DNA of 64,000 nucleotides from a bacterium. Lineage in GTDB: Bacteria > Myxococcota_A > Bradymonadia > UBA7976 > UBA1532. The notes under the pieces were generated by a model. The model saw nothing but the letters and a program-made list of their open reading frames with translations. It was not told where the DNA came from and did not search any database. The DNA is taken from contig JAUHYW010000008.1 in NCBI GenBank assembly GCA_030426085.1, positions 124,001 through 188,000 on the forward strand, in the 5' to 3' direction. Positions 1 through 35,900 of the stretch are shown in pieces; position 1 is the stretch's first letter; each line of letters begins with the position of its first letter. The translations under genes were made by a program, and so were the position numbers.

Positions 1-1298
1 AGGCCGGCCAGGGTCGAGCTCGAGATGCGGTTGAGCGCGTTGCGCAGCGCCTCGGGGCCGTCGACGGCGAAGTAGACGTCCTCCACGTCCCGATCGTCCC
101 GGCCCTCCTCGGGATCACCGGCCGCCACCAGGGCCCCGAGCGCGGCGCTGCGGGCCTCGTCGGCCTCGGGATGGTCGAAGCCGATGACGTACAGCTCGAC
201 CCCCTGCTCGGCCAGCCGGGCGATGTAGGTCGACGGCGGCTGATAGGGGAAGCCCTCCCGCCGGCAGTCCCCGACGCACGGATCGGCCCCCGCGTCGGCC
301 GTCGGGTCGCGGTAGTACTCGGTGCTGCCCCCGTCGGTGAACAGGACCGCCACCCGCCGTCGGCACTCGAAGGCCGGATCGGCCTCGTCGTCGCCGCCGT
401 TCTGCAGCCGGTCGTAATACGTGACCATATCGGCCAGCATCGCAGCGGTCGGGGTCGGCCCCTCGGGCACGAACGCCCGGAGCTGATCGAGCACGAAGGC
501 GTTGTGCCGGCGCACGCTGTCGGGGTCTTCACCCACCGACACGTCGGGCCGCAGATTGCCGTCGTTGACCACCCCCCGATGCCCCGAGATGAGGGCCCCC
601 GGCACCGGCGGCTGGGCCGCGGCGGTCGGCGGGCGCACCCCCAGGTTCGGCCGGCGCACGCCGCTGGCGATGACGTCGGCCTGGGCGGCGAGGGCCGCGT
701 CGACCTGGATCGCGTCGTGCTCGGCCCCGTACGACGCCGCCACCGAGGGGTCGCCATCGCTGGTCATCAGCCCGAACTTGATGCGCGACTCATTGGCCAC
801 GATCAAGCCGTCCCGCCGGATGTGAAGGTCGGGATCGGCGAGCTGATCGTCGTAGGTCGCGCTGTCGTCGGCGCACGGCCGCCAGACCGCGCAGGCCGGC
901 CCCGCCCGCAGCGTGCAGCACAGCGAGCGGCGGTTGACGGCGACCCGATCGGCGGCGAGCGCCGGCTTGTCATAGCGGGGGTCGATCGCCGCCGGCTCGG
1001 CCATGCAGGCGTACTGCTCGATCGGCTCGGGGGTGCCGGTGAGCACCGCCTTGAGCAGGTTCATGCGGCTCATCATCCGCTGGTTGCCCACCGGGGCCGG
1101 CGCGGGCAGCGCGGCGCCGGCCCGGGGCAGGCAGGCGTCCCCCTCGGCGAGCGCCGGCCCGTGCATCGAAGCCGAGCCGTCGATGACCAGCATCAGCTCC
1201 GGCTTGAGGTTGCGGTCGTCGTCCTGAGCGTACGCCGGGGCCACGCCGAACCCGGCGGCCACGGCGACGAGCGCCCATCGATATGCGAAGTGCTTCAC
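1..1298 (-). CDS. PilY1-like vWA type IV pilus tip protein (3' end off window)
   Basis: The frame runs open from a GTG start at 1298 to the left edge, so only about 432 N-terminal residues are seen. A signal peptide (roughly residues 1-25, ending near AYAQ) is followed by a vWA domain. Its metal-ion site reads LVIDGSASMHG, and a second vWA strand reads VLFTDGG. A purine-rich Shine-Dalgarno (GGGGGGGAGAG) ends 3-4 bases before the GTG. The gene is last in a minor-pilin operon, 19 bases after the PilX-like gene, which is where PilY1 genes usually lie. PilY1 proteins combine an N-terminal vWA domain with a C-terminal beta-propeller and act at the pilus tip in adhesion, mechanosensing and retraction control. 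The propeller would lie outside the window, so PilY1 rests on position plus the vWA domain. Confidence 0.75.
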   Translation of the reverse strand, partial: MKHFAYRWALVAVAAGFGVAPAYAQDDDRNLKPELMLVIDGSASMHGPALAEGDACLPRAGAALPAPAPVGNQRMMSRMNLLKAVLTGTPEPIEQYACMAEPAAIDPRYDKPALAADRVAVNRRSLCCTLRAGPACAVWRPCADDSATYDDQLADPDLHIRRDGLIVANESRIKFGLMTSDGDPSVAASYGAEHDAIQVDAALAAQADVIASGVRRPNLGVRPPTAAAQPPVPGALISGHRGVVNDGNLRPDVSVGEDPDSVRRHNAFVLDQLRAFVPEGPTPTAAMLADMVTYYDRLQNGGDDEADPAFECRRRVAVLFTDGGSTEYYRDPTADAGADPCVGDCRREGFPYQPPSTYIARLAEQGVELYVIGFDHPEADEARSAALGALVAAGDPEEGRDDRDVEDVYFAVDGPEALRNALNRISSSTLAG

Positions 1299-1317
1299 GT
1301 CTCTCCCCCCCGCCGCG

Positions 1318-2016
1318 TCACAGGGCCTGGCACGAGGCGCCGTCGAGCACCTCGAACACCATACCCGCCCGCAGGGCGTACTCGGCGAACCGGACGTCGT
1401 CCCGGGCCGCCTCGAACCGATCGCTGCCCACCGCCTCGCCGGCGACGTACCCCCGCGAGGTCAGGTGCAGCAGACAGTAGTCCGAGGAGTCCTCCCGGTT
1501 GGCGGTGATGTCGTTGCCCGGCGGCGGCCCCCAGAGCTGGAAGCCCTCCACCGTCACCTCGAAGCTGCTGACGAGCCCCGAGGTCTCGCCGTAGCGACCC
1601 AGGGGGTTCGGCCCCGACGAGATGAACGCCGGCAGGCCCACCGGCGCCGGCGAAGTGTAGACCGGGCCGCCCACCGGCTGGCCGTCGGGCCCCACCCGCA
1701 GCACCCGGGCCCCGCCGCGATCGTCGACGACGACGACCGCCTGATTGCCGTCGATGCGGGCCGCCTGCCACTGCGCGATGAGCGCGCCCGACAGCGGCGA
1801 GGCGCTGTTGAACAGGGTCAGCACCGAGTACAACCCGCTCTCGGCGACGTAGCGGGCCTGCTTCTGCAAGCGCACGTTGCCCGCGCTGGCGATGTTCTGG
1901 GTCGTCGAGCGCATCGCCAGCAGCCCCAGGGCCAGCATGGCGAACAGGATCAGGATCGCCAGGACCAGCGCGCTGCCCCGCTCCCTCCGGCGCCGTGGGC
2001 GGTCAGTTGCCCGCAT
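1318..2016 (-). CDS. PilX-like minor pilin
   Basis: This 232-residue protein begins with a short Arg-rich stretch, then ERGSALVLAILILFAMLALG and a helix containing QKQARYVAESGLYS. That is the pattern of the PilX N-terminal domain: a hydrophobic helix after a charged segment, and the conserved 'AESG' region. PilX-family proteins are minor pilins that help prime type IV pilus assembly with PilV, PilW, FimU/GspH and PilY1. The ATG at 2016 has a good upstream GGGAGGG, and the first 14 bases overlap the end of the PilW-like gene, indicating translational coupling. No Glu at position +5 after a classical Gly cleavage site is obvious, as is common for this family. Confidence 0.82.
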   Translation of the reverse strand: MRATDRPRRRRERGSALVLAILILFAMLALGLLAMRSTTQNIASAGNVRLQKQARYVAESGLYSVLTLFNSASPLSGALIAQWQAARIDGNQAVVVVDDRGGARVLRVGPDGQPVGGPVYTSPAPVGLPAFISSGPNPLGRYGETSGLVSSFEVTVEGFQLWGPPPGNDITANREDSSDYCLLHLTSRGYVAGEAVGSDRFEAARDDVRFAEYALRAGMVFEVLDGASCQAL

Positions 2017-3211
2017 TGAGCCCTCCCAGATCGCCCCGGAACAGGTTGGTCGCCTCGACGACGGTCTTGAGCGTCATCACCCGGGCGAACCCGACCTCTT
2101 GATCGTCCACCTCGAACCACGACCGATCGGCCGCCAGCCGGTCGTCGCCGGCCAGGGCCCGGTCGGGGGCCACCACGAACTCCGGGTCCTCCCGGGGGGT
2201 GCGCACGGCGAGCAGCAGCCCCAGGGCGCGCACGTCCTGGATGCGCTCCCGGAAGACCCGGGCCCCCTGGCGCTCGTCCTCCCGGGCGTCGGCCCGCTCC
2301 CGCTCCTGGTCCATCGTCGTCGGCGCCGCGTCCCGGGTCAGACCCCAAGCCTGGAAGTCGACCACATGGTCGGCCATGACCAGCTCCGAGTCGTCGAGGT
2401 AGGCCGGATCACCCGGCTGATCCTCGACCGCGTCCACCAGCCGGCGCACCAGCCGGGTCACGGCCGCGTCGTCCTCGTCCGTCGTGATCACGTACTCCAC
2501 CTCGACCACCGCCGAGGCGAGGCAGCTCTGCCCGCAGCTCCGCACCCGCACGTCGCCGCACAGCCGCACGTCGTCGCCCTGGGCCAGCGTCAGCCGGGTG
2601 CCGTCGGCGGCGAAGTCGACCTGGGTGATCGGGACCATGTCGAAGGCGTTGTCGGGGGTCGAGATCGAGACGTAGCTGCCCGGCTGGAAGTGCGCCAGCA
2701 TGCGGGCCCGGGACAGCGCGATGGCCCGGGTCTCGGCGGTCGGCTGCTGGTCGGCCGGGGCCAGGGTCACCGCGTCGGCCGCGACCCGGCGGGTGCGGAA
2801 CATCGTGCCGTTGCCCGCGTCGATGAGCAGCCGCAGCCGGTCGGCCTCGATGTCGTTGGGCGCGTCGAAGATGTCCGGCTGACCGTTGGCCTCGGGGTCG
2901 CCGCCCTCGGCCCCCTCGAACAGCTCGACCGCCCGCATCAGCGGCCGCTCCCGGCACAGGCGGGGGTCGCGGCCGACGCCCTCGCCCCGGACGACCGCCA
3001 GCCGCCCGGCGTTGCGCAGGTCGCTCTTGAGCAGCTCCACCGCGAAGCGCATGCTCTCCTGCATCTGCACGATCTGCTCCTGCCGATAGTACTGCGCGGT
3101 GTTGGCGATGAAGACGAAGTACACCGCGAGCAGCACCAGGGCCGACATCAGCCCGGCGATGAGCAGCTCGATCATCGTGAAGCCGGCGCTCGACCGACGG
3201 CGGCGACTCAC
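2003..3211 (-). CDS. PilW-like minor pilin
   Basis: The product has 402 residues. It starts with a basic leader and the prepilin peptidase motif AGFTMIELLIAGLMSALVLL (cleavage after Gly, Phe at +1, Glu at +5), followed by the N-terminal pilin helix. The large C-terminal part holds a Cys-containing region (near LCGDVRVRSCGQSC) and is mostly beta/loop, as in PilW proteins. A GTG start at 3209-3211 overlaps the stop of the PilV-like gene in the arrangement GTGA. PilW proteins belong to the minor-pilin priming complex at the inner membrane and pilus tip. The family is inferred from length, motif and gene order. Confidence 0.82.
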   Translation of the reverse strand: MSRRRRSSAGFTMIELLIAGLMSALVLLAVYFVFIANTAQYYRQEQIVQMQESMRFAVELLKSDLRNAGRLAVVRGEGVGRDPRLCRERPLMRAVELFEGAEGGDPEANGQPDIFDAPNDIEADRLRLLIDAGNGTMFRTRRVAADAVTLAPADQQPTAETRAIALSRARMLAHFQPGSYVSISTPDNAFDMVPITQVDFAADGTRLTLAQGDDVRLCGDVRVRSCGQSCLASAVVEVEYVITTDEDDAAVTRLVRRLVDAVEDQPGDPAYLDDSELVMADHVVDFQAWGLTRDAAPTTMDQERERADAREDERQGARVFRERIQDVRALGLLLAVRTPREDPEFVVAPDRALAGDDRLAADRSWFEVDDQEVGFARVMTLKTVVEATNLFRGDLGGLNAGN

Positions 3212-3756
3212 AGATCACCTCCCTTGGCCCGCAGCGCGACCGGCACCGTCAGGGCGTAGAACCGGGTCGGATCGACCACGAAGCCCGCCGCGGCGGCGTC
3301 GGGGCAGACGTCGTCCATCTCGTCGGGGTCCAGCGACGCCCGGGACCACACCACCCGCACCCGGCCGTTGAGGCCGCCCGAGTAGCGGGCGTCGGGGAGC
3401 TGGTCGACCCGATAGTGCACGCAGAAGCGGGACAGCGGGCGGTCGACCCGGTTGTTGTGATCGACCGGGCCGTCGGGGGTCAGCGAGCGCCAGCGGCCGG
3501 GCGCGCCGGAGATGTTGCCCGCGTTGGCCGGCACGACGCCGTTCCAGGCGTAGGCGTTGAGCCGCAGCCACTCGGCGTGCAGCTCGGCGAGGTTGACCGC
3601 CGCCGAGGTCTCCCGGGCCGAGATGTTGCCCTGCATGCTGCCGATCTGGAGCGAGAAGATCGCCGCGAAGCCGAAGGCGGTGATGACCACCGCGATGAGC
3701 ACCTCGATGATGGTGAAGCCGCGGTCGGCGGCCGGTCGATGCGTCGGGCGCGGCAT
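3208..3756 (-). CDS. PilV-like minor pilin
   Basis: A 182-residue prepilin with the leader and cleavage motif DRGFTIIEVLIAVVITAFGF near residues 12-31. The 'EVLIA...G' pattern after the cleavage site is typical of PilV/GspI-type minor pilins, and the length fits. The ATG at 3756 overlaps the stop of the GspH-like gene by one base (TGATG), so translation is probably coupled. A longer in-frame opening upstream (to 4644) runs through the preceding gene and is not used. It would act with its neighbours in initiating the pilus fibre. Confidence 0.82.
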   Translation of the reverse strand: MPRPTHRPAADRGFTIIEVLIAVVITAFGFAAIFSLQIGSMQGNISARETSAAVNLAELHAEWLRLNAYAWNGVVPANAGNISGAPGRWRSLTPDGPVDHNNRVDRPLSRFCVHYRVDQLPDARYSGGLNGRVRVVWSRASLDPDEMDDVCPDAAAAGFVVDPTRFYALTVPVALRAKGGDL

Positions 3757-4391
3757 CAGTTCACCCTCATGCGCGCGCCGCCGGCGAAGCTCAGCTCCAC
3801 CCGGCGGGGCGGGCCGACCCGGGCCCAGCCGCCGCGGTCGATCTGAAACCGCTGCACCCGGACCTCGGTGGTCCCGGTCAGCGGCCGGACGCCGGCCCCG
3901 AGCAGGCGCGAGGCCGAGCCGTCGGGCGCGATGCACAGGCGCAGGGGCTCGCGCTGCTCGTCGTCGTCGACCGTCGACCAGCCGCGCAGGCCGGCCGTCG
4001 GCTCGACCGGGCCGACGTAGGTGTCGACGACGGTCCCCCCGAACGGCTGGGACTCGATCAGCGCCACGAAGCCGTCGTCGTCCACCCGGGTGGCCGTCTC
4101 GCCGCAGCTCGTCGAGCGGCTCTCGGAGATGTCGATGCGCCCCCCCGGCTCGTCGGCGAGGAAGAGCGACAGCTCGACCACGTAGGCCCGGTTGCGCCGG
4201 CGGGCCTGATCGATCACCCGGTTGTAGACCCGCACCAGCCGGGTCGCCGCGCTGGCGTCCTTGTTGGCCCCCTGGAACGTCGTCAGCGCGGGGTAGGCCA
4301 CCAGCGTGATCAGCAGGGCGATGGTCATGACCAGCAGCAGCTCCGAGAGGGTGAACCCCTCGGTCGCCGGTCGGCGGCGGGCGTGTGGCAT
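3756..4391 (-). CDS. GspH/FimT-like minor pseudopilin
   Basis: This 211-residue protein has a short basic leader followed by EGFTLSELLLVMTIALLITL, a prepilin peptidase site with Glu at +5. The rest resembles GspH/FimT/FimU proteins: a long N-terminal helix, then a beta-rich globular domain. It is the first gene of the minor-pilin operon (GspH, PilV, PilW, PilX, PilY1-like), all tightly packed on the minus strand. A GGGGGAG lies about 11 bases before the ATG, a slightly long spacing. The operon is divergent from the outer-membrane gene at 4625. Confidence 0.8.
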   Translation of the reverse strand: MPHARRRPATEGFTLSELLLVMTIALLITLVAYPALTTFQGANKDASAATRLVRVYNRVIDQARRRNRAYVVELSLFLADEPGGRIDISESRSTSCGETATRVDDDGFVALIESQPFGGTVVDTYVGPVEPTAGLRGWSTVDDDEQREPLRLCIAPDGSASRLLGAGVRPLTGTTEVRVQRFQIDRGGWARVGPPRRVELSFAGGARMRVN

Positions 4392-4624: not shown

Positions 4625-6016
4625 ATGTCCCCCGCCCGCACCACCCGCCGCCCGGCCCTGACCGCGATCGCGGCGCTCGCGCTCGGCGGCCTGCTCGGGG
4701 GCCCGGCCGCCGCCGATCCGGCCGACCACCCGCCGGGCTATCGGGTTCACGGCGAGACCCTGCTGATCCTCGACCGCTGGCGGGGCACCCGGGCGGTGAC
4801 CGTCGAGCGCACCGACATGCGCCAGCGGCTGCGGCTCGACGCGTGGCGGCTGGGGCAGGACCCCGACACCCGCGGCGGCCCCCGCCTCGATCTGGCGCTC
4901 GACCTCGAGATCGGATCGGACCTCGGCCCCACCGCCGACGTGCTCGACGCGGTGCCCGACGGCCGGCGGGTGATCCTCGACCTCTACGCGGCCCACCTCG
5001 ACCTGCGGGGCGCCTTCGACGTGCTCGACGTGCGCCTCGGCCGGCAGCGCACCCTCGACGCGCTGGGCTTCGAGGGGTTCGACGGGGCGGCGGTCGAGGT
5101 CCGCGCGCTGCCCTACGTCACGCTGCGGGCCCACGGCGGGCTGACCATCCACCGGGCGTGGAGCACCTTCGGCCCCGAGCTGTACGAGACCGACGATACG
5201 CGGCTGCGGGACGCCCCGGGCGGCGTGGTCGGGGTCGGCGCCCGCACCCGGGGCCTCGACGCGGTCGCGGCCGACGTCGTCTGGCGCCGGGTCCTCGACG
5301 ACGGGGGCACCCTCCAGGACGCGGTCGCCGCCGCCGCGCTCGCCCGGCTGGGCGACGCCTTCGACGCCTCGGCCGGCGCGGTCTACGACCTGCTCTACCT
5401 GCGCCCCTCCGAGCTGCGGGCCGGCCTCGGCTGGCGGGCGAGCGCCGCCACCCGCCTCGACGCCGAGTGGCTGCGGTCGCACCCCACCTTCGCCGGGGAC
5501 AGCATCTGGAGCGCCTTCGTCACCGAGGCCCACCACGCCGCCCGGCTCGCCGCCCACCACCAGACCGGCCCCTGGCGGATCTCGGGGGACGCAGAGCTGC
5601 GCCTCTTCGACGGCGGCGCGGGCGGGGCGGCCGAGGACGACCGGGCGTTCGTCGGCGGGGCCCGCGTCCAGCGGGCCTTCCGGGTGCTGTCCCGGGCCGC
5701 GCACGCCGGGCTCGACGGCCGCCTGGGCCTGGGCTACGGCGGCGCCCGGCACCACCTCGACGCCTTCGGCCGGCTGCCGATCCGGCTCATGGGGCCCGAG
5801 TCCCCCCTCTGGCTGCGCATGCGCCTCGGCGCGATGTACTTCGACGTGCCCGACCGCGACGACTGGGACGGCTGGGCCGGCTGGCTGGCGGTGGCCGGCG
5901 AGTGGTACGCCGCCGATGGCCTGCGGCTCGACGGGGTGCTCGAGGGCCACACCCACCGGGCCGAGGCGCTGCGGGTCCGGGCGATGGCCCGGCTGACGGT
6001 GGAGGGCTTGTGGTGA
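4625..6016 (+). CDS. Predicted outer-membrane beta-barrel protein
   Basis: The product has 463 residues. A signal peptide (Arg-rich start, then a hydrophobic Ala/Leu stretch, cleavage near PAAADP at about residue 30) precedes a long sequence of alternating short amphipathic strands rich in Arg, Asp, Leu and Tyr. There are no transmembrane helices, which fits a porin-like barrel. A charged strand such as LDVRLGRQRTLDALGFEGFDG resembles bacterial barrels of the DUF/porin type, but no family is recognised with certainty. The ATG at 4625 was chosen because the signal peptide begins there. Its stop overlaps the cytochrome gene (GTGA), suggesting the two act together, perhaps as a barrel that houses or exports electrons to the multiheme protein. 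Confidence 0.6.
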   Translation: MSPARTTRRPALTAIAALALGGLLGGPAAADPADHPPGYRVHGETLLILDRWRGTRAVTVERTDMRQRLRLDAWRLGQDPDTRGGPRLDLALDLEIGSDLGPTADVLDAVPDGRRVILDLYAAHLDLRGAFDVLDVRLGRQRTLDALGFEGFDGAAVEVRALPYVTLRAHGGLTIHRAWSTFGPELYETDDTRLRDAPGGVVGVGARTRGLDAVAADVVWRRVLDDGGTLQDAVAAAALARLGDAFDASAGAVYDLLYLRPSELRAGLGWRASAATRLDAEWLRSHPTFAGDSIWSAFVTEAHHAARLAAHHQTGPWRISGDAELRLFDGGAGGAAEDDRAFVGGARVQRAFRVLSRAAHAGLDGRLGLGYGGARHHLDAFGRLPIRLMGPESPLWLRMRLGAMYFDVPDRDDWDGWAGWLAVAGEWYAADGLRLDGVLEGHTHRAEALRVRAMARLTVEGLW

Positions 6017-7176
6017 TCGCGCTGTGGCTCGTCGCGGCGCTGGCCGCGCCCCCCGTCGGCCCGGTCTACCCCGCCGGCGCGACCCCCCTGCGCTTCGCCC
6101 ACGCCCAGCACGGGGCGGTGCCCTGCGGCCGATGCCACGCCGCCGCCGAGACCTCGGCCCGCCCCGGCGACCGGCTGCTGCCGGCCGAGGCGGTCTGCTT
6201 CGAATGCCACGACCCCCGCGCCGCCGCCGCGCCCGCCGCCGGCTGCGCCACCTGCCACCCGGGCTACACCCCGACCACCCTGCCCGCCGACCCCCGGCGC
6301 ACCGCCCTGGCGAAGCCCTACCCCCCGCCGGTCGAGATGCCCGTCGCCGCGCTGAACTTCGGCCACCGCCCGCACCTGGCCCGGGGCGCCGCCTGCGCCG
6401 ACTGCCACGCCGGGGTCGAGGCCTCCACCGACGCCGGGCAGCGGTTCCTGCCGTCGATGGATCTGTGCGTGGCGTGCCACACCGCCCGCGGGGCCTCGAC
6501 CGCCTGCGCCACCTGCCACCCCGCCGGGCCCGACGGCCTCTTGCAGACCGCCCTGCCCGCCGGCCCGCTGCGCCCCCGGGGCCGCTTCCACCCGGCCGAC
6601 CACCGGGGCGACTTCACCCGGCGCCACGCCGCCGCCGCCCGGGCCGACGCCGCCTACTGCGCCGAGTGCCACCGCCCGAACGACACCCTCCGCCGCCCCG
6701 GGTGCGACGGCTGCCACGCCGACCAGCGCAAGCCGCTGGCGCTGCACCCGGCGGACTACGTGCGGACCCACGGCATCGACGCCCGCCGGGCCACCGACTG
6801 CGCCGGCTGCCATCGCGCGCAGACCTTCTGCGTCGACTGCCACACCCGCTCGGGCGTCACCCCCGCCGCGGGGCCGACCGGCTTCGGCTCCACCGACGGG
6901 GCCGCCCGGTTCCACGGCCCGGGCTTCGTGGGCGACGTCGGCGCGCCCCCCGGGCCGGGCCACCACCGCCACGCCGCCCGGCGCAACCTGAGAGAGTGCA
7001 CGAGCTGCCACCAGGAGGCCGACTGCGTGGTGTGCCACGGGGCCGACGCGCCGAGCGGCTTCGCCGCGCCGAGCCCCCACCCCCCCGGATTCGACTGCCG
7101 GACGCTTGACCGCAACGCCCGGGGGTGCTTGAAGTGCCATCGCGACCGCGGCGCGCTCGACCGGCTGTGTCGCTGA
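6013..7176 (+). CDS. 13-heme c-type cytochrome (cytochrome c3/c7-like)
   Basis: The 387-residue product starts at a GTG overlapping the previous stop by four bases. A short hydrophobic signal (VIALWLVAALAAP) is followed by thirteen CxxCH heme-binding motifs, including CGRCH, CFECH, CADCH, CVDCH and CLKCH. Early repeats carry the 'F-x-H-x-x-H' element before the CxxCH (RFAHAQH, NFGHRPH), as in c3/c7 class multihemes, where those histidines are distal ligands. The protein is probably periplasmic or bound to the outer membrane and moves electrons. Its tight coupling to a barrel gene upstream and envelope genes downstream recalls porin-cytochrome conduits, though no known PCC/Mtr family is claimed. 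Heme count and secretion are read directly; the electron partner is unknown. Confidence 0.9.
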   Translation: MIALWLVAALAAPPVGPVYPAGATPLRFAHAQHGAVPCGRCHAAAETSARPGDRLLPAEAVCFECHDPRAAAAPAAGCATCHPGYTPTTLPADPRRTALAKPYPPPVEMPVAALNFGHRPHLARGAACADCHAGVEASTDAGQRFLPSMDLCVACHTARGASTACATCHPAGPDGLLQTALPAGPLRPRGRFHPADHRGDFTRRHAAAARADAAYCAECHRPNDTLRRPGCDGCHADQRKPLALHPADYVRTHGIDARRATDCAGCHRAQTFCVDCHTRSGVTPAAGPTGFGSTDGAARFHGPGFVGDVGAPPGPGHHRHAARRNLRECTSCHQEADCVVCHGADAPSGFAAPSPHPPGFDCRTLDRNARGCLKCHRDRGALDRLCR

Positions 7177-7196
7177 GCCCGCCGCCCGGAGGTCCG

Positions 7197-8375
7197 GTGC
7201 CCCGTCCGCAGCTCCGCATCGCCGCCCCGCTGCTCGCCGCCGCCCTCGGGCTGATCCCGCTGGCCGGATGCGGCGCCGACGACGACGCGCCGGCCCCGCC
7301 CCAGACGGTGACCCCCGCCACCTGCCCCCCGCTGCCCGAGCTGGCCCCGAACACCTTCGCGCTCGTCGAATCCGAACAGCTCCCCGCCCTGCGCACCCTG
7401 GTCGCCGAGCGCATCACCGACGCCCAGCTCTCGGCGCTGCTCGACGGGGTCATCACCCTCATCGGCGGCCTGAGCCTCGACGAGCTGGACGCCCTCGCCG
7501 CGCTGGTGCAGAGCGACGCCGTCGCCGACCTCGCCCCGCTGCTGCTCGACCTCGTGCGCTGGCTGGCCGGCGACCCCGACGACCCCACCAGCTTCCGGGC
7601 CGACCTCGTCGGCGACCTGCGGCGCATCGTGGGCACCTGCGACACCCCGTCCCTGCTCGGCGTGCTCGAGACCGCCGCCACCGCGCCCGAGCTGCCCCGC
7701 CTGCTCGCCGGCCTGGGCGACGTGCTCGCGCTCGACGTCGTGCAGCAGCTCCTCTCGGCGGGCGATGCGCTCGACCGGGCCGGCTTCACCGTGCTGGTGT
7801 GCAACATCCTCGCGAGCCTCGTGCGCCCCGGGTTCAGCGTGGCCGGCGACATCATCCAGCCGCTGTCGGGCGTCGACCTGCTGCCGCTCGACGAGCCGCC
7901 CATCGCCCCGTTCCTGGCCGACCTCGACGCGGTGCTCGACCCCGAGGGCCCCATCCTGCCGGTGCTGGCCGACCTCGTCTGCTGCGACGTCTACGGCGTG
8001 CGCCACTGCGCCGCGCTGACCGCGCAGAGCGAACCCCTGCCCCGCGACCCGACCTTCACCTGGGCGATGCACGGGCTGTTCACCGGGGGCATCATCGACA
8101 TCGAAGCGGCGCTGGCCGCCGCCGGAGGCCTCGTCGGCGACCCCGACGTCAAGGCCACCCTGCGCCCGCTGAAGGTGCTGCTCGACCGGATCATCGCCGA
8201 CCCCCAGCTCCAGGGCGTGCTCGACAGCCTGCTGGTCACGCTGCTCGACCCCAACACCGCCCGCCCGCTGCTGCTCGAGCTGCTGACGCTCATCGACGCC
8301 GGCGCGGTGGACGAGCTGTTCGCGGTGCTCGAGGCGGTGGTGGACGGCTGCTCGCCGGACGACCTCGCCCCGTGA
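7197..8375 (+). CDS. Lipoprotein of unknown function
   Basis: This 392-residue protein opens with PRPQLRIAAPLLAAALGL and a lipobox LAGC, so it is a lipoprotein with the lipidated Cys near residue 24. The GTG at 7197 is chosen because GGAGG sits four bases upstream and the signal peptide begins there; a longer opening reaches 7125 but overlaps the cytochrome gene. The mature part is Leu- and Asp-rich and looks mainly alpha-helical, with repeated patterns of the type LxxLLDxLxxLL, perhaps a helical-repeat solenoid. No family is recognised. It is third in the envelope operon and overlaps the FadL-type gene by four bases (GTGA). Confidence 0.65.
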   Translation: MPRPQLRIAAPLLAAALGLIPLAGCGADDDAPAPPQTVTPATCPPLPELAPNTFALVESEQLPALRTLVAERITDAQLSALLDGVITLIGGLSLDELDALAALVQSDAVADLAPLLLDLVRWLAGDPDDPTSFRADLVGDLRRIVGTCDTPSLLGVLETAATAPELPRLLAGLGDVLALDVVQQLLSAGDALDRAGFTVLVCNILASLVRPGFSVAGDIIQPLSGVDLLPLDEPPIAPFLADLDAVLDPEGPILPVLADLVCCDVYGVRHCAALTAQSEPLPRDPTFTWAMHGLFTGGIIDIEAALAAAGGLVGDPDVKATLRPLKVLLDRIIADPQLQGVLDSLLVTLLDPNTARPLLLELLTLIDAGAVDELFAVLEAVVDGCSPDDLAP

Positions 8376-9676
8376 GACACCTCGCCCTCACCCTCGCGCT
8401 GATCGGGCCCACCGCCGCCGGGGCCAGCGTGCTCGACATCTTCGGCTTCGACCCCCGGGGCGCGGCGATGGCCAACGCCCAGACCGCCGTCGCCGACGAC
8501 TTCACCGCCGCCTTCTACAACCCCGGGGCCCTCGCCCGCCGCAAGCGGATCGTCGCCGGGGCCGGCTTCATCGCCGGCTTCTCGGCGCTCGAGATCAACC
8601 GGGCGCTGAGCGACAGCCCGTTCGAAGAGCGCCTGCCCGAAGACTTCGCCGGCCTCACCATCGGCGCGCTCTTCCCGCTCGGCGAGGCGCTCGACAACCG
8701 CATCGCGCTGGGCCTGGGCATCTACGTGCCGCTGGCCCAGCTCGCCGAGGGCGACATCTCCGACGGCCGGATCCCGCAGTTCTACCGCTACCAGAACCTG
8801 CCCGATAAGTTCGTCGTCGCCGCCGCGCTGTCCGCCGAGCTGACCGACTGGCTCAGCATCGGCGGCGGGGTGCAGGTGCTCGCCGGGCTCGCCGGGGGGG
8901 TCGACTTCCAGGTGGCCATCGCCGACCGGGCGGTGCGCGAGCAGCAGGTCGGGGTCGAGGTCTCGCTGACCCCCGCCGGCACCGCCGGCCTGCACCTCGC
9001 CCCGCTCGACGGCCTGAGCATCGGCCTGAGCTGGCGTCAAGCCATCGCCCTCGACTACGCGCTGCCCAGCTCGATCGTCATCGACGACCTCGTCTCGATC
9101 GCCCTCGACCTGCGGGGCACGGTGCTCTACACCCCCGAGAGCTACAACCTCGGCGTGGCCTACGCCATCGCGCCCATCGACCTGCTCGTCTCGGCCGAGC
9201 TGAGCTACGTGCGCTGGTCCGAGGCCCCCGACCCCAGCATCGAGATCGCGCTCGACCTCGAGGGCGAGCTGCTCGAAGGCGTCGGCCTCGACGAGCGCCT
9301 CGACATCGCCAGCGGGGCCCCGGTCGACCTGCAATTCCGCGACGTCGGCGTCTGGCGCCTCGGCCTCGAGTACCGGGTCGACGAGACCCTGGTGGTGCGC
9401 AGCGGCTACGCCTGGCGCCCCAGCCCGGCCCCGGTGCCCGACGGCGCGTTCAACTACATCGACGGCGACGCCCACCTGTTCGGCGCCGGGCTGGGCATCA
9501 CGTTCAACAACCCGCTCGAAGAGCAGGGCAACCCGGCCCACGTCGATCTGGCGTGGCAGGGCACGCTGATGCAGCAGATCCAGGTCACCAAGCGCGCCGC
9601 GGGCGACCCGGTCGGCGACTACACCGCCGGGGGGCTGGTGCACGCGATCAGCATCGCGTTCCGGCACGACCTGTGA
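8372..9676 (+). CDS. FadL/OmpP1-family outer-membrane transport protein
   Basis: The product has 434 residues, from a GTG start overlapping the previous stop. A signal peptide ends near AAGAS. The N-terminal hatch region reads GAAMANAQTAVADDFTAAFY followed by NPG, the hallmark of FadL/TodX/OmpP1 channels (family PF03349). The remainder alternates beta-strands and ends in a strand finishing AFRHDL, as expected for a barrel of 14 strands. FadL proteins take up long-chain fatty acids or other hydrophobic compounds across the outer membrane. The substrate is not known here. The operon link to a multiheme cytochrome is unusual for this family. Confidence 0.85.
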   Translation: MRHLALTLALIGPTAAGASVLDIFGFDPRGAAMANAQTAVADDFTAAFYNPGALARRKRIVAGAGFIAGFSALEINRALSDSPFEERLPEDFAGLTIGALFPLGEALDNRIALGLGIYVPLAQLAEGDISDGRIPQFYRYQNLPDKFVVAAALSAELTDWLSIGGGVQVLAGLAGGVDFQVAIADRAVREQQVGVEVSLTPAGTAGLHLAPLDGLSIGLSWRQAIALDYALPSSIVIDDLVSIALDLRGTVLYTPESYNLGVAYAIAPIDLLVSAELSYVRWSEAPDPSIEIALDLEGELLEGVGLDERLDIASGAPVDLQFRDVGVWRLGLEYRVDETLVVRSGYAWRPSPAPVPDGAFNYIDGDAHLFGAGLGITFNNPLEEQGNPAHVDLAWQGTLMQQIQVTKRAAGDPVGDYTAGGLVHAISIAFRHDL

Positions 9677-10113
9677 TGCGCGCGGTGCTCACCGCCGCCC
9701 TGCTCGCCCTCGGGGCGCTCCCGGCCCACGCCCGGCACGGGTTCGACGTCAGCGGCGACTACCTGATGGCCGGGCTCGACCTGGGCGTGACCATCGACGA
9801 CGACGCCGGGGCGCTGCTCGGGGTCGAGCTGAGCTACGTCGAGCTGGACGCCGCCGGGCCGTGGATCGGGCTGTTCGTCACCGGCGCCTGGGCCAGCGAC
9901 CTCGACGTGGGGCGGTTCACCGTGGGGCCCGAGATCGGCTACGGCTTCGGCGGGATCGACGGCGGCGTCAGCGTGGACACCGACGGCACACTCGGCGGCC
10001 GGGCGCGGGCGATGCTGAGCGTCGGGGTCGCCTCGCTGTACGTCGGCGCGGCCTTCGGCGGCGGCACCCGGGCCGAGGTGGGGCTGCTGATCAAGGCCCC
10101 GCTCGAGCTGTAG
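9676..10113 (+). CDS. Small outer-membrane beta-barrel-like protein
   Basis: This 145-residue protein has a clean signal peptide (residues 1-20, cleavage near AHARHG). Short amphipathic strands follow, alternating hydrophobic and Gly/Asp residues (for example IGYGFGGIDGGVSVDTDG and GRARAMLSVGVASLYVGAAF). The final strand resembles those of small eight-stranded barrels. The ATG overlaps the FadL stop (TGATG), making it the last gene of the envelope operon. It is not recognised as a named family. Confidence 0.6.
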   Translation: MRAVLTAALLALGALPAHARHGFDVSGDYLMAGLDLGVTIDDDAGALLGVELSYVELDAAGPWIGLFVTGAWASDLDVGRFTVGPEIGYGFGGIDGGVSVDTDGTLGGRARAMLSVGVASLYVGAAFGGGTRAEVGLLIKAPLEL

Positions 10114-10186
10114 AGTCCAGAGCGGTGGCGATTCGCCGCGCTCGGGTTATCTTGATGCGCAAGACCCGGAGACGACGAGCCTCGTG

Positions 10187-11068
10187 ATGCAACTGACCGC
10201 GTTCGTCCGCGCACTCTCACCCAATCGACCGCTGGACGGCGACGACCAGCGCTACGTCGAGCGCCCGGACAACGGCGGGGAGCAGCTCGCGCGCATCGCC
10301 GCGCTCGATCCCGACCCGATCGCCGTCTTCGGCCCGTCGGGGGTCGGCAAGAGCACCGAGCTGATCCGCGCAGCTCGCCGACTGGCCCCGATGGCCGCGC
10401 CGGTGCTGGTGCAGCTCGACCGGAAGCTCGACATGAGCCGACTCACGCTGGACGGCGTCTTCGACGCGTGCGCCGACGCGATCGAGTCGACCACATGGCC
10501 CCTCGACCTCGCCGCGCCCGAGCCTTCCGAGGGGGCGGGTCGCCCCTCGATCGATCGTCTGCTCGACCTCATCCGCACGCGGCTGAAGAACGACGGGCGC
10601 CCCGTTCTGCTGATCGACGGCCTCGAGAAAGCGGACGAGGGCGCCGCGCGCTCCGTGCTCAAGGGCCTCCTGCTCCTCGCTCCGGAGACCGGGCTGGTAG
10701 TCGTGATGCCACCGAGCCTGGTGATCGGGCCTGCGTCGTATCGAGCAGTCGAGGACTATCGCCAGTTCGCGATCGGCCCGCTGCCGCTCCGTGTCGCCCA
10801 ATCATTCTTCCGAGCGGTGCTGGATCGGCGGCTGGCCGGCGCGGCCATGCCGCACGAGGCGCTGGTCGACCGAGCGACACTCATGAGCGGCGGTATCACC
10901 CGCACGTTCCTCAGCCTGCTCAAGAGCGCCGCACTCTACGCCGCGTTGGCCGACCGGGAGGAGACCCGGGTGCCGGTGCCCTTCATGTCGCCGCCCGACG
11001 CCCTGGCCTGGGTCCTCGCCACGGCCGACCCCGACCTCGAGCCCTGCGGGTGGATCGACCCGACGTAG
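10187..11068 (+). CDS. P-loop ATPase (AAA-16/STAND-like)
   Basis: A protein of about 293 residues with a Walker A motif GPSGVGKST near residue 50 and a Walker B-like strand PVLLIDGLEKAD near residue 143. An N-terminal segment (ALSPNRPLDGDDQRYVERP) and a C-terminal helical part complete it. No effector or sensor domain is fused, and the Walker B region has Asp-Gly rather than Asp-Glu/Asp. It resembles the stand-alone 'GTGKSTEL' ATPases often seen in Myxococcota. The start could also be the GTG at 10184, three bases upstream; GGAG at 10168 is rather far from either. It follows the envelope operon after 70 bases but is probably a separate function. Confidence 0.7.
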   Translation: MQLTAFVRALSPNRPLDGDDQRYVERPDNGGEQLARIAALDPDPIAVFGPSGVGKSTELIRAARRLAPMAAPVLVQLDRKLDMSRLTLDGVFDACADAIESTTWPLDLAAPEPSEGAGRPSIDRLLDLIRTRLKNDGRPVLLIDGLEKADEGAARSVLKGLLLLAPETGLVVVMPPSLVIGPASYRAVEDYRQFAIGPLPLRVAQSFFRAVLDRRLAGAAMPHEALVDRATLMSGGITRTFLSLLKSAALYAALADREETRVPVPFMSPPDALAWVLATADPDLEPCGWIDPT

Positions 11069-11205
11069 CAAATCTGCGTCCGGCTCGCTCCGCTCATCGG
11101 GATCGCCCCGAGGCCCCCGGGACCACCCCGTCGGCGCCGGCTCTACCACATGAAGGCTCGCCCGGCGCTTGACGCCGCCTCCCGCGATCTCCACGATGCC
11201 CGGCC

Positions 11206-12783
11206 ATGGGACGCATCGACGAACTGAAGCGGCGGCGCACGTTCGCCATCATCAGCCACCCGGACGCCGGCAAGACCACCATCACCGAGAAGCTGCTGCT
11301 GTTCGGCGGGGCGATCCAGATGGCGGGCGCGGTCCGGGCCCGGCGGGCCTCGCGGCACGCGGCCAGCGACTTCCTCAAGATGGAGCAGGAGCGCGGCATC
11401 TCGGTCAGCACGGCGGTGATGTCGTTCGACTACGAGGGCTTCGCGGTCAACCTGCTCGATACGCCGGGCCACGCCGACTTCAGCGAGGACACCTACCGGG
11501 TGCTCACCGCCGTCGACAGCGCGCTGATGGTGCTCGACAACGCCAAGGGCGTCGAGAGCCGGACCCAGGCGCTGATGGACGTCTGCCGGCTGCGCGATAC
11601 GCCGGTGGTGACCTTCTCGAACAAGCTCGACCGGGAGGGGCTCGACCCCTTCGAGCTGATGGAGAACGTCGAGGAGAACCTGAACCTCGCCTGCGCGCCG
11701 CTCACCTGGCCCATCGGCATGGGCAAGCGCTTCGAGGGCATCTACGACCTGGTGAACAAGCGGGTGGTGTTCTACCAGCCGACCGAGCGGGGGCGGCGCA
11801 ACGAGCAGGTGTTCATCGACGACCTGTCCGACGATACGCTCGACGGCCTCATCGGCACCCTCGCCGCCGACAAGCTGCGGGAGGACGTCGAGCTGCTCGG
11901 CGCGCTCGAGCCGTTCGACCCCGAGCTGTTCGCCACCGGGCAGCAGAGCCCGGTGTTCTTCGGCAGCGCGATCAACAACTTCGGGGTCAAGGAGCTGCTC
12001 TCGCAGTTCGTGCGCCTCGCCCCGCCGCCCCAGGCCCGGCCGACGAAGACCCGCGAGGTCGAGCCCGCCGAGGATCCGTTCACCGGCTTCTGCTTCAAGA
12101 TCCAGGCGAACCTCGACAAGCGGCACCACGACCGCATGGCCTTCGTGCGCATCACCTCGGGCAAGTACGAGCGGGGCATGAAGCTGGCCCATGTGCGCAC
12201 CGGCAAGACGGTCACGGTCAACAACGCCACGACGTTCCTGGCCCAGGCCCGGGTGATCACCGAAGAGGCGTTCCCCGGCGACATCATCGGGCTGCACAAC
12301 CACGGCGGCATCCGCATCGGCGACACCTTCACCGAGGGCGAAGAGCTGAAGTTCACCGGCATCCCGGCCTTCGCCCCGGAGCTGTTCCGCCGGGTTCAAC
12401 TGCTCGACCCGCTCAAGGCCAAGGCGCTGATCAAGGGGCTGACCGAGCTGTGTGAGGAGGGCGCGGCGCAGTTCTTCCGCCCGGTCGAGGGCAGCGACTA
12501 CATCGTCGGCGCGCTCGGCGCGCTGCAGTTCGACGTGATCGCGTCGCGGCTGGAGAACGAGTACCGGGTGCGGGCCCGCTTCGAGTCGGTGCCGCTCGGC
12601 GCGGCCCGCTGGATCACCTGCCCCGATCGGGACAAGCTCGACGCCTTCGTCGACCAGAACAAGCGCCGGGTCTACACCGACATCGCCGACAACTACGCCT
12701 ACATCGTGCAGAGCGAGTGGGCGGTGAACTACGCCGCGGAGCAGAACCGCGACATCCAGTTCCACAAGACCGTCGAGATCTGA
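11206..12783 (+). CDS. prfC: Peptide chain release factor 3
   Basis: The 525-residue product matches RF3 in length and motifs. The G1 loop is HPDAGKTTITEK, followed by FGGAIQMAGAV and the switch region RGISVSTAVMSFDY. G3 is DTPGHADFSED, G4 is NKLD and G5 lies near SAINNFG. RF3 is a translational GTPase that removes RF1/RF2 from the ribosome after peptide release. The insertion ARRASRHAASDFLKMEQE matches the RF3-specific segment (usually KxRKS...TSDWMxxEQ), here with Ala in place of the usual acidic start. The ATG at 11206 has no strong Shine-Dalgarno. The gene stands alone and converges with the SDR gene. Confidence 0.95.
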   Translation: MGRIDELKRRRTFAIISHPDAGKTTITEKLLLFGGAIQMAGAVRARRASRHAASDFLKMEQERGISVSTAVMSFDYEGFAVNLLDTPGHADFSEDTYRVLTAVDSALMVLDNAKGVESRTQALMDVCRLRDTPVVTFSNKLDREGLDPFELMENVEENLNLACAPLTWPIGMGKRFEGIYDLVNKRVVFYQPTERGRRNEQVFIDDLSDDTLDGLIGTLAADKLREDVELLGALEPFDPELFATGQQSPVFFGSAINNFGVKELLSQFVRLAPPPQARPTKTREVEPAEDPFTGFCFKIQANLDKRHHDRMAFVRITSGKYERGMKLAHVRTGKTVTVNNATTFLAQARVITEEAFPGDIIGLHNHGGIRIGDTFTEGEELKFTGIPAFAPELFRRVQLLDPLKAKALIKGLTELCEEGAAQFFRPVEGSDYIVGALGALQFDVIASRLENEYRVRARFESVPLGAARWITCPDRDKLDAFVDQNKRRVYTDIADNYAYIVQSEWAVNYAAEQNRDIQFHKTVEI

Positions 12784-12785
12784 GC

Positions 12786-12797
12786 GCCCGCCCGGGC
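12786..12797. terminator. Short hairpin between convergent prfC and SDR genes
   Basis: The 14 bases between the two convergent stops contain GCCC-GCCC-GGGC, a four-base-pair stem with a four-base loop. It could help terminate transcription from both sides. There is no T tract and the stem is short, so support is weak. Confidence 0.22.
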
Positions 12798-13589
12798 TCA
12801 GTGATCGTTGGCGTCTTCGAGCAGCGACCCCGCCGCGTGGGTGATGAAGCCGCGGTGGAAGACCTCGCTGAAGAAGGCGTTGAGCTTGTTGATGATGCCC
12901 GGCACCACCGCCCGCTTGCCCTTGAGCATGGCCTTCACCCCGATCCGGGCCACCGCCTCGGCCGACAGGATCGACAGGTTCATCAGCGGGGGGGTCTTCG
13001 CGTCGGCGACCGCGTTGAACTCGGTGCGGGTGATGCCGGGGTAGAGCGTGGTGACGCTGACCCCGGTGCGGCGCAGCTCGAAGCGGATCGCCTCGCCGAA
13101 CGCCTTCACGTAGTGCTTGCTCGCGGCGTAGGCCGCCACGTAGGGCGAGGGCAGGAACGCCGCCGCCGAGGCCACCTGCATGATGCGCCCCCGCCCGGCG
13201 GCGACCATCGGCCGGGCGAAGCACAGGGTCAGCTCGGTGAGGGCGAGCACGTTGAGCCGGATCATGCGCTCGATGTCGGCCATCTGCTGGTCGACGAAGC
13301 GGGCCTGCAAGCCGAATCCGGCGTTGTTGACCAGGATCTGCACCGGCAGGTCGGCCTCGACCACCGCGTCGAAGAGCTTCTGGCCGGCGCCGGGCAGCGC
13401 CAGATCCTGCTCGAAGATCTTCACGTCGACCGGGTGCTCGGCGCCGATGCGCTCGGCGAGGGCGGCCAGCCGGGCCCGGCGGCGGGCGGTGATGATCACC
13501 GGCCAGCCGCGGCCCGCCAGCTCGAGGGCGATCGCGGCGCCGATGCCGCTGCTCGCGCCGGTGACCAGCGCGTAGCCTCTGTCGGTCAT
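12798..13589 (-). CDS. Short-chain dehydrogenase/reductase (SDR)
   Basis: The product has 263 residues, usual for a classical SDR. The nucleotide-binding motif TGASSGIG is at residues 10-17, NNAG lies near 90, and the catalytic Tyr-Lys motif is YAASK with an upstream Ser in QVASAAAF. The N-terminal Arg cluster (TARRRARLAAL) favours NADP(H). The C-terminal half resembles the YqjQ/'DltE' type SDRs that act on lipid-like ketones, with a hydrophobic end region (NAFFSEVFHRGFITHAA). It follows the membrane hydroxylase gene by 22 bases in one operon, so it may oxidise or reduce the same lipid substrate. The substrate is inferred only from this neighbour. Confidence 0.88.
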   Translation of the reverse strand: MTDRGYALVTGASSGIGAAIALELAGRGWPVIITARRRARLAALAERIGAEHPVDVKIFEQDLALPGAGQKLFDAVVEADLPVQILVNNAGFGLQARFVDQQMADIERMIRLNVLALTELTLCFARPMVAAGRGRIMQVASAAAFLPSPYVAAYAASKHYVKAFGEAIRFELRRTGVSVTTLYPGITRTEFNAVADAKTPPLMNLSILSAEAVARIGVKAMLKGKRAVVPGIINKLNAFFSEVFHRGFITHAAGSLLEDANDH

Positions 13590-13611
13590 GGGATCGGGCC
13601 TCGGCAGGGGG

Positions 13612-14532
13612 TCAGGCCGGCTGCCGGGCCGGCGCGGGGCGGGGCTTGCGGGGCGGCGCCTTGCGCTTGATGGGCAGCGGGATGCCGTGGTGGTGCAGGT
13701 AGTTCGCCGACAGCCGCCAGTCCTCGTAGTAGGTGCCCCACAGCCGGTCGTAGAACGAGAACGCCGCCGCGTGGTTGATCAGGTTGCCCCGCTTGCAGTG
13801 GTGCAGTTTGTGGGCGTGGTTGTCCATGAAGATGTAGCTCAGCGGCCCGATGTTGAAGGTGACCACCGTGTGGTCGGTGGCCTGCAACGCCAGGATGAGG
13901 AAGTAGGCCGCCAGCGTGGCCGGCAGATCCATGCCCAGGGCCCAGGCGATGACCACCATCGCCGGCTGGAACTGGCTGAAGGCGGTGTCGACGAGCGACG
14001 ACTGGTTGCCCCGCAGGAAGTCCATCTCGGCGACCGAGTGGTGGGCGGCGTGCTTCTTGCGCCAGTATTGCTTGATGCGGCCCCGGCCCACGCTGTGGCT
14101 CATCTTGCGGTGGATCCAGTAGTAGGCGAGGTCGTCGAGCAGCACCGCGGCGAAGATGAGCCAGCCGCTGTTCGACAGCGGGCCGTGCAGCGGCGCGAAG
14201 CTCGCCAGCCACCAGCCGGCGACCACGAAGCCGCCCCCGGCGAGGATGCCCTGCCAGAAGACCTGGGCCAGCCCCATCACCCAGTCCCGGGCGGTCAGCG
14301 CCGGCAGCTCGATGGCCGGGTGGCGCTTCTCGGCCGAGATGGTGAAGACCATGAAGACGAACGAGGTGACCAGGAAGCCGACGATGACGTGGAACAGCGT
14401 CACCCCGAAGAGCGCCAGCCACAGGATGTAGAAGACCGGCGAGCCGAGGTGCCCGAAGATGCCGTAGAGCAGGCCGGTGCGCTGCTCGGGCGGGGTCTCG
14501 GGGATCGCCAGCGTCTCGTAGGTGTGGGCCAT
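13612..14532 (-). CDS. Membrane fatty-acid hydroxylase / sterol desaturase family enzyme
   Basis: The 306-residue integral membrane protein has four or five hydrophobic segments and the His-box pattern of the di-iron hydroxylase family (PF04116): HRKMSH, HAAHH and HKLHH, plus single histidines. Such enzymes oxidise sterols, fatty acids, carotenoids or sphingoid bases. The ATG at 14532 is preceded by GGAGGATGC; an upstream open extension to 15468 is an antisense shadow of the metallo-hydrolase gene. The Lys/Arg/Pro-rich C-terminus (IKRKAPPRKPRP) is cytoplasmic-looking. It is co-transcribed with the SDR downstream and divergent from the lipoprotein hydrolase at 14776. Confidence 0.85.
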   Translation of the reverse strand: MAHTYETLAIPETPPEQRTGLLYGIFGHLGSPVFYILWLALFGVTLFHVIVGFLVTSFVFMVFTISAEKRHPAIELPALTARDWVMGLAQVFWQGILAGGGFVVAGWWLASFAPLHGPLSNSGWLIFAAVLLDDLAYYWIHRKMSHSVGRGRIKQYWRKKHAAHHSVAEMDFLRGNQSSLVDTAFSQFQPAMVVIAWALGMDLPATLAAYFLILALQATDHTVVTFNIGPLSYIFMDNHAHKLHHCKRGNLINHAAAFSFYDRLWGTYYEDWRLSANYLHHHGIPLPIKRKAPPRKPRPAPARQPA

Positions 14533-33803: not shown

Positions 33804-34613
33804 GTGAGCGACCGCAGCAAGATCGAATGGACCGACGCAACCTGGAATCCTGTCCGGGGCTGTCAAAAGGTCAGCCCAGGCTGCAAACACTGTTATGCTG
33901 AGACCTTCGCCAACAGATGGGTCGGTGTTCCGGGACACCCGTACGAGCAAGGCTTTACTCCGCGGATCGTGGAGACGAAGCTCTTCGAACCGCTCAGTTG
34001 GGTTCGTCCGCGCAAGATCTTCGTCAACTCGATGAGCGACCTCTTCCAACCCTTCGTTTCTGATTCGTTCATCAGGCAAGTGTTCGAGGTGATGGCGCTG
34101 GCCGACTGGCACGTCTATCAGGTCCTGACCAAGCGAGCCGGTCGAATGCGGTCGGTGGTCAACGCCCTGCCGGCCCGGCTGCGAGGACTTGCTCACGTAT
34201 GGCTCGGGACAAGCGTCGAGGACAGAAAGTACGGGGTGCCTAGGATTCGTGAACTGGCCCAGACCGACGCCAGCATCCGATTTCTGTCGGTCGAGCCGCT
34301 CCTTGAGGACTTGGGGCAACTGAACCTCGAGGGCATTGGCTGGGTCATCGTTGGTGGAGAGAGCGGCCCGGGGGCGAGGCCAATGGAACAAGCCTGGGTC
34401 ACATCAATGCGGGATCAATGCGCATTGCATACTCCTGCGGTCCCGTTCTTCTTCAAGCAGTGGGGTGGGGTTCAGAAGAGCCGATTTGGCCGCCTTCTCG
34501 AAGGTCGTGAGCACAACGGATTCCCGGAGCCTCCTCTCCAAGAGGCTCCCCCGCGCGGAAACCGATTGGCGCGTCGCGAACTTCTGGAGCTTCGGTTGGA
34601 CGCCGTAGCCTGA
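33804..34613 (+). CDS. DUF5131 (phage Gp37/Gp68-like) three-Cys-motif protein
   Basis: The 269-residue product begins SDRSKIEWTDATWNPVRGC and has Cys20, Cys27 and Cys30 in the pattern C-x6-C-x2-C followed by Tyr-Ala-Glu. This is the family PF07505/DUF5131, whose Cys cluster resembles radical-SAM [4Fe-4S] ligands. Other conserved stretches are KIFVNSMSDLF, VYQVLTKRAGRM, HVWLGTSVEDR, LSVEPLLEDLG and VIVGGESGPGARPM, then PFFFKQWGG, typical of the family. The biochemical role is not established. The GTG start has GGAGA six bases upstream. It is paired with TcmP 18 bases downstream. Base composition is clearly lower in GC than the surroundings, a sign of transfer. Confidence 0.92.
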   Translation: MSDRSKIEWTDATWNPVRGCQKVSPGCKHCYAETFANRWVGVPGHPYEQGFTPRIVETKLFEPLSWVRPRKIFVNSMSDLFQPFVSDSFIRQVFEVMALADWHVYQVLTKRAGRMRSVVNALPARLRGLAHVWLGTSVEDRKYGVPRIRELAQTDASIRFLSVEPLLEDLGQLNLEGIGWVIVGGESGPGARPMEQAWVTSMRDQCALHTPAVPFFFKQWGGVQKSRFGRLLEGREHNGFPEPPLQEAPPRGNRLARRELLELRLDAVA

Positions 34614-34631
34614 CCAGGAGGCAGGGGGGCA

Positions 34632-35900
34632 ATGCCCAAGAGCCACTACGAATGGGATCGCTGGTCTCCTCCTGTGATCGGTGAGCATAGCTTGGCAAAG
34701 CACCGTATTCTCCGTGAATACGTCGAACGGTATGTTCAGATTCTGATGGCCGATCCTCGGCGCGATTTACTCAAGCTTACGGTTGTCGATGGCTTTGCTG
34801 GTGGCGGTATCTACCAACTCGCGACGGGTGGCGAGCATCTTGGCTCGCCCCTCATACTCATGGACGCTGTTGAGTCAGCGGTCGCGAAACTCCAGAGGAA
34901 ACGCCTCAAGCGAATCAAGGTCGCAGCCGACTTCGTGTTCATCGAGAAGAAAGCCGATGCCCATGTCTGCTTGGAGTCTGTACTCGAAGAGCAGCGACCC
35001 GGGGTCCTCCAGTCGGACCATGTGAAGTCTGTCCATGGACTCTTCGAAGAAGAGTTGGACGGCGTCATCTCTCACATCAATAGCCGGGGACGAAAGCCAC
35101 GGGCCATCTTCATCTTGGACCAGTATGGCTATAGCGACATCCTCGTCGATACGCTCCGCAGCATATTCTCGCGCATCCCAAACGCCGAAATCTTCATGAC
35201 TCTGGCGGTCGGATGGATTGTGGCCTACATGAATGGCGAGACGAACGCAGGCCACATACTCCGAAAAAGCTTGGGTTTGAGCGCGGCCGAGGTAGAGGAC
35301 GCGTTCCTACGCGAAGACGCCGACGCAGCCAGGAAGCGCCGCACAGTTCAGGCCGTCCTACATCAGACGTTCTCGACCAAGCTCGGAGCCCAATACTATA
35401 CGCCGTTCTTCATACATTCGAGGGAGAGCAACAAGTCTTACTGGTTCCTCCATCTAGCAAACTCCTGGCGCGCCCATGACGAAGTGAAGAAGCTTCACTG
35501 GACCATGGAGAACCACTTCCGCCATTATGGCGACGCAGGGACCATGATGCTGGGCTTCGACCCTCGGAAGGACAATCCGGATCAATTGGACTTGGTGTAT
35601 GCGTTCGACTACTCGGCGAAAGGCCGGACGACAGACTCGTTGTTGGAGGAACTCCCCCGGATGATCACCGACGAGTACACCGACGGAATCCAACTCCGTG
35701 CTCTCGCTCAGTCTCTGGCGAACCAGACCCCAGCGACCGAATCCCTGCTCGGTGAAGTGGTCAACAAGGCATGCCAGGAGCAGCTATTGGTGAAGAAAGG
35801 TAGAGATGGCGAGGTCCGCCGACCGTCGACGACTACGAAGCCGAATGACATCATCTATCCTGCTCGGCAACTCAGGCTCCCGTGGCCCCACTCCAAGTAA
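34632..35900 (+). CDS. tcmP: Three-Cys-motif partner protein TcmP
   Basis: The product has 422 residues, close to the family length, and matches TcmP (family TIGR04474). Motifs are WSPPVIGEHSLAKHRILREY near the N-terminus, VVDGFAGGGIY (residues 51-61, like methyltransferase motif I), FIEKKADAH (motif II-like) and IFILDQYGYSD near residue 160. In most TcmP proteins the last reads LDPYG; here Gln replaces Pro. The fold is thus probably a Rossmann methyltransferase type. TcmP genes regularly pair with DUF5131 genes, as here, with 18 bases between and AGGAGG upstream of the ATG. One sampled 60-base row (34741-34800) has 32 G+C, far below the host genes. Partner and target are unknown; a mobile or defence role is a guess. 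Confidence 0.92.
   Translation: MPKSHYEWDRWSPPVIGEHSLAKHRILREYVERYVQILMADPRRDLLKLTVVDGFAGGGIYQLATGGEHLGSPLILMDAVESAVAKLQRKRLKRIKVAADFVFIEKKADAHVCLESVLEEQRPGVLQSDHVKSVHGLFEEELDGVISHINSRGRKPRAIFILDQYGYSDILVDTLRSIFSRIPNAEIFMTLAVGWIVAYMNGETNAGHILRKSLGLSAAEVEDAFLREDADAARKRRTVQAVLHQTFSTKLGAQYYTPFFIHSRESNKSYWFLHLANSWRAHDEVKKLHWTMENHFRHYGDAGTMMLGFDPRKDNPDQLDLVYAFDYSAKGRTTDSLLEELPRMITDEYTDGIQLRALAQSLANQTPATESLLGEVVNKACQEQLLVKKGRDGEVRRPSTTTKPNDIIYPARQLRLPWPHSK

Follow-up and report, generated by a model that had tools for sequence, protein, structure and literature searches.

A conserved barrel and 13-heme cytochrome gene pair, probably an outer-membrane electron conduit core, beside a separate lipoprotein-FadL pair

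Five open reading frames (A to E), which all lie on the plus strand at positions 4625-10113 of the 64,000-nucleotide stretch of bacterial DNA analysed here (the window), raise the question of whether they make up a single electron-transferring system or a row of separable units. A sequence-only reading had treated them as one system, consisting of a barrel-like protein, a secreted cytochrome, a lipoprotein, a FadL-type channel, and a small barrel, and had suggested either a new electron conduit or a module for oxidising a hydrophobic substrate at the cell surface. The compact arrangement that it described is indeed present, with five co-directional genes separated by overlaps of 1-4 nt and one small gap (Table 1). 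Thus, the overlap is 4 nt both between A and B and between C and D, while C follows B after about 20 nt (if the GTG at 7197 is its start) and E overlaps D by 1 nt (if the ATG at 9676 is its start).

Table 1. Genes of the locus and the operon diverging from it (window coordinates)
Feature	Position	Strand	Description
A	4625..6016	+	predicted outer-membrane beta-barrel, 463 aa with signal peptide, 22 predicted strands
B	6013..7176	+	exported 13-heme c-type cytochrome, 387 aa
C	7197..8375	+	helical lipoprotein, without heme motif, without named family
D	8372..9676	+	FadL/TodX-family outer-membrane channel
E	9673..10113 (ATG start at 9676 possible)	+	small exported protein, probably a small barrel
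Minor-pilin operon	3..4391	-	FimT, PilV, PilW, PilX, PilY1-like; divergent from A

An outer-membrane electron conduit has been defined by three parts, namely a multiheme periplasmic c-type cytochrome, an integral outer-membrane barrel, and a redox lipoprotein (PMC6148476). As regards the cytochrome, we counted exactly 13 CxxCH motifs in the 387 residues of B, against about 0.15 expected by chance (estimated from the Cys and His content), and in an alignment of 73 distinct B homologues the heme-motif positions are 96-100% conserved, so the thirteen-motif secreted cytochrome of the sequence-only reading stands. A further 11 histidines are at least 90% conserved among these homologues and are candidate distal heme ligands. 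With 53.3 bits, B lies well over the Pfam gathering cut-off (24.8) of the Cytochrome_C7 family (PF14522). Here, the N-terminal six hemes resemble two c7 triheme units, with matches to c7-type families and to solved multiheme proteins such as 3ov0, while the C-terminal seven-heme half gave no match comparable to that of the N-terminal half. The motif number itself is stable, being exactly 13 in B at 66 of 84 loci, and B homologues from Neomarinimicrobiota retain the full set of 13 and have one more. In the window, B has a short signal peptide with no basic start, which speaks against the conduit reading, and several lineages carry B with a lipobox-like anchor. Judging from its N-terminal export signal, B would be located in the periplasm, and would thus be the multiheme periplasmic c-type cytochrome of the three-part definition. 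Moreover, in part of family f6, B consists of the seven-heme C-terminal half alone and still adjoins A, which suggests that this half is the partner of the barrel. At four loci of this family (L038-L041), B is often just the seven-heme half with a lipobox-like start, and some f6 genomes have separate six-heme homologues of the N-terminal half located elsewhere.

For A, an AlphaFold2 model computed from an eight-sequence alignment gave a barrel of 22 strands (pLDDT 72.9, pTM 0.67), in which we place moderate confidence, the loops being uncertain. In a structural comparison, this model matched solved barrels of the outer membrane (Z 15-18); the best rows were TonB-dependent receptors and OprD-type porins, and usher barrels were also among the matches listed. 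The barrel-like character ascribed to A, which had been made to depend on a barrel being predicted, is therefore upheld. No Pfam or NCBIfam family matched A, and the MtrB chain appeared neither in the sequence search nor among the structural matches listed, though its absence from that listing is no evidence of difference. According to the model, A is probably an integral outer-membrane protein with transmembrane beta-strands, as the barrel part of the conduit definition has it (PMC6148476).

The two genes belong together well beyond the window. In fact, at 74 of the 75 loci with enough flank, A immediately precedes B, and the sole exception (L056) is a weak 19-motif match; since the loci were picked largely among the best matches to B, intact pairs may be over-represented. 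Among 377 genomes sampled from the phylum of the window, B is present in 158 (E 1e-40 or better) and A in 111 (E 1e-20 or better). Given this adjacency and this spread of B, A-B is a conserved barrel-cytochrome pair. Moreover, the evolutionary distances of A and B correlate with r 0.92 over 66 loci (at most 0.23 in 1000 permutations), a value inflated by shared ancestry. We found no description of the pair in the literature searched (13-heme cytochromes, Myxococcota conduits, and Bradymonadales cytochromes and pili), which covered few subscription papers and makes this absence weak. Downstream of A-B at another locus (L142, 10892-11860), we noticed a lipoprotein without a Pfam match, which belongs to a cluster found at nine loci of the phylum-wide sample.

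The company that the pair and its relatives keep bears on the conduit question as well. On another contig of the window's genome (C61, locus L043), there is a B paralogue that likewise has 13 hemes. Its cluster, at 5874-14146 of that locus, comprises an 18-heme lipoprotein, a protein in the barrel position, the 13-heme paralogue, a 30-heme protein, and a collagen-repeat protein with an MtrC/MtrF-like domain, and so resembles a complete extracellular electron transfer locus. The MtrC/MtrF-like domain is found there in a 10-heme protein (PF22113, 2.4e-38), and the 411-aa protein beside the paralogue, which does not match the A profile, is a putative barrel by its position. In families f11 and f15, genes for 26 to 34 hemes are located 4-6 kb upstream of A-B. 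Both this paralogous cluster and these giant-heme-gene neighbourhoods are contexts expected of conduits. At the window locus and in most families, no redox lipoprotein or surface cytochrome was found near A-B, nor was there a further multiheme gene within the flanks searched around A-B in the window. The one lipoprotein at the locus, C, is without a heme motif, and the redox-lipoprotein part of the definition is thus absent there (PMC6148476).

The next two genes were correctly recognised as encoding a lipoprotein and a FadL channel. C has a LAG-C lipobox, and its lipidated cysteine is followed by glycine in 13 of 13 aligned rows, which share six further conserved cysteines. No Pfam or NCBIfam family matched C, and its AlphaFold2 model, built from three sequences, was too poor for use (pLDDT 38.9). 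D scores 58.5 bits against PF03349 (FadL/TodX), over the gathering cut-off of 29.7, while its best NCBIfam match, the AupA equivalog NF041571, reaches 40.2 bits against a cut-off of 840. Wherever we examined a C locus, D is directly downstream of C, and even distant C homologues (families f5, f11, f40, f43, and f47) directly precede a FadL gene in 17 of 17 loci. A profile search for A and B near these distant C-FadL loci found neither (0/16). C-D is thus a separate lipoprotein-FadL pair that occurs independently of A-B, and the two pairs are joined only in the window's family. There, one member (G009) has A-B directly followed by prfC, without C-D. In two loci of family f33, prfC is near A-B and no C-D lies between, so a later insertion of C-D between A-B and prfC would fit. 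The pair may then combine an outer-membrane lipoprotein with a FadL channel through which hydrophobic molecules would pass, and may have come to lie between B and prfC in one family.

As for E, it is small, in keeping with the earlier reading, and looks exported, but its assignment as a barrel is weak (13.8 bits against 28.7). In a sister genome, E is shifted by about 2.3 kb and follows an ATPase gene. Since other E homologues are found on unrelated contigs, E is a passenger outside the conserved unit. The stretch after D (9676-11206 in the window, 11779-14536 in L045) is unlike between the sister genomes, with other ATPase genes and E moved, which suggests an insertion-prone site. Farther along the window, a stretch at 33804-35900 with a GC content of 58% versus about 73% contains two genes. 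Presumably, these resemble DUF5131 and three-Cys-motif partner proteins, and the low-GC stretch is a possible acquired island.

How, then, should the five genes be read? A single machine might be envisaged, in which A-B acts as a wire for the oxidation or reduction, at the outer membrane, of a hydrophobic compound delivered by the FadL channel, and C is the lipoprotein that docks. The A-B-C-D order does recur in 10 of the 11 B-bearing genomes of the window's family, in several genera, where C identity falls as low as about 30%. Yet C-D stands without adjoining A-B in several families, A-B stands without C-D across the phylum and in G009, E is unlinked elsewhere, and C has no redox motif, all of which leaves such a machine quite improbable. 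Looking for the five-gene order in other genomes, as the sequence-only reading had proposed, did not bear out the five genes as one system, and the five-gene module was rejected because C-D and E are separate from A-B elsewhere. As to its other suggestion, that the cytochrome may oxidise a hydrophobic substrate, no finding spoke in favour.

A different view would have B as a free periplasmic cytochrome for storing or shuttling electrons and A as an ordinary porin, their adjacency reflecting co-expression and no complex. This would agree with a locus that encodes no surface partner and with the likeness of the N-terminal half of B to soluble c7-type multiheme proteins, but the almost invariant A-B adjacency in the phylum, which extends out to Neomarinimicrobiota, and the lipobox-like anchors that would hold B at a membrane in several lineages make it rather unlikely. 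Alternatively, A-B might serve the divergent type IV pilus, by feeding electrons to PilY1-tipped pili or by sensing redox state for them. The operon upstream of A does contain PilX_N and N_methyl domains, and a minor-pilin/PilY1 operon adjoins A-B at all 8 testable loci of the window's family and at 6 of the 7 f6 loci, once in the same direction. The pilin operon is therefore conserved beside A-B within the class, though it was seen in none of 56 loci outside it. Such linkage could be mere inherited neighbourhood, and the pilin genes are by sequence not electron carriers; we regard a pilus-serving role as very improbable.

We therefore favour A-B as the core of an outer-membrane electron conduit, with C-D as a separate pair that one family has between B and prfC, a reading that we consider probable as a whole. 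For A-B itself, a trans-outer-membrane electron conduit is the most likely function. The conduit proposed at the outset thus survives for A-B, given the predicted barrel, the near-invariant adjacency, and the paralogue among surface-type multiheme cytochromes, but is not supported for all five genes together. In the complex envisaged, B would be a 13-heme wire, threaded into or docked on barrel A, that relays electrons across the outer membrane. Its hemes would be oriented such that the seven-heme C-terminal half is lodged inside the barrel or lies against it, and the six-heme N-terminal half reaches into the periplasm and exchanges electrons with soluble carriers. A bolder version would see in A-B a class of trans-outer-membrane conduit of its own, spread over the phylum and without relation to Mtr, Omc, and Ext, which dispenses with a dedicated surface cytochrome, also in large-genome members, and in one family is functionally coupled to a FadL channel handling a hydrophobic redox compound; we hold this to be unlikely.

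If A-B does conduct electrons, a large share of the phylum (the B-bearing genomes counted above) would possess an outer-membrane redox route, the barrel of which has no name in the family libraries searched and no description in the literature searched. The range of possible extracellular electron exchange would then grow by many lineages at one stroke. Keeping C-D apart from A-B also averts a misleading substrate hypothesis and defines the lipoprotein-FadL pair in its own right.

Set against known systems, C-D recalls the alkane uptake pair AupA/AupB of Marinobacter, a FadL-family channel with a partner envelope protein (PMC5989066), in being a two-gene unit of such a channel and an envelope partner. 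Here, however, the gene order is reversed, and the partner C bears a lipobox, while AupB is recovered with the inner membrane on fractionation (PMC5989066). B shares its N-terminal half with the cytochrome c7 and class III multiheme domains (PF14522 and the dodecaheme 3ov0) but differs from them in its seven-heme C-terminal half, which goes with a barrel. With Shewanella MtrCAB, A-B has in common a barrel and a multiheme cytochrome, and the B paralogue in the window's genome adjoins an MtrC/MtrF-like protein; the differences are the predicted 22 strands of A versus the 26 of MtrB (PMC12133095) and 13 hemes versus 10. No profile match of A or B identified MtrB or MtrA, and the best match of B to an MtrA chain (6r2q_A, E 0.011 over about 54 positions) is far below its c7-type matches. 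In the Geobacter porin-cytochrome conduits (OmcB-type, ExtABCD, and ExtEFG), ExtA and ExtG have 12 hemes and ExtB and ExtE have 18 and 21 transmembrane segments, respectively (PMC6148476), so that the modelled 22 strands of A would lie within the range reported for other conduits. Because the redox lipoprotein of the three-part definition (PMC6148476) is missing at the locus, we call A-B conduit-like and not a proven member. While its locus differs from those of Geobacter in lacking a redox-cofactor lipoprotein, and is set beside Ext and Omc by description and not by sequence, it shares with them a barrel gene that adjoins the gene of a periplasmic multiheme cytochrome.
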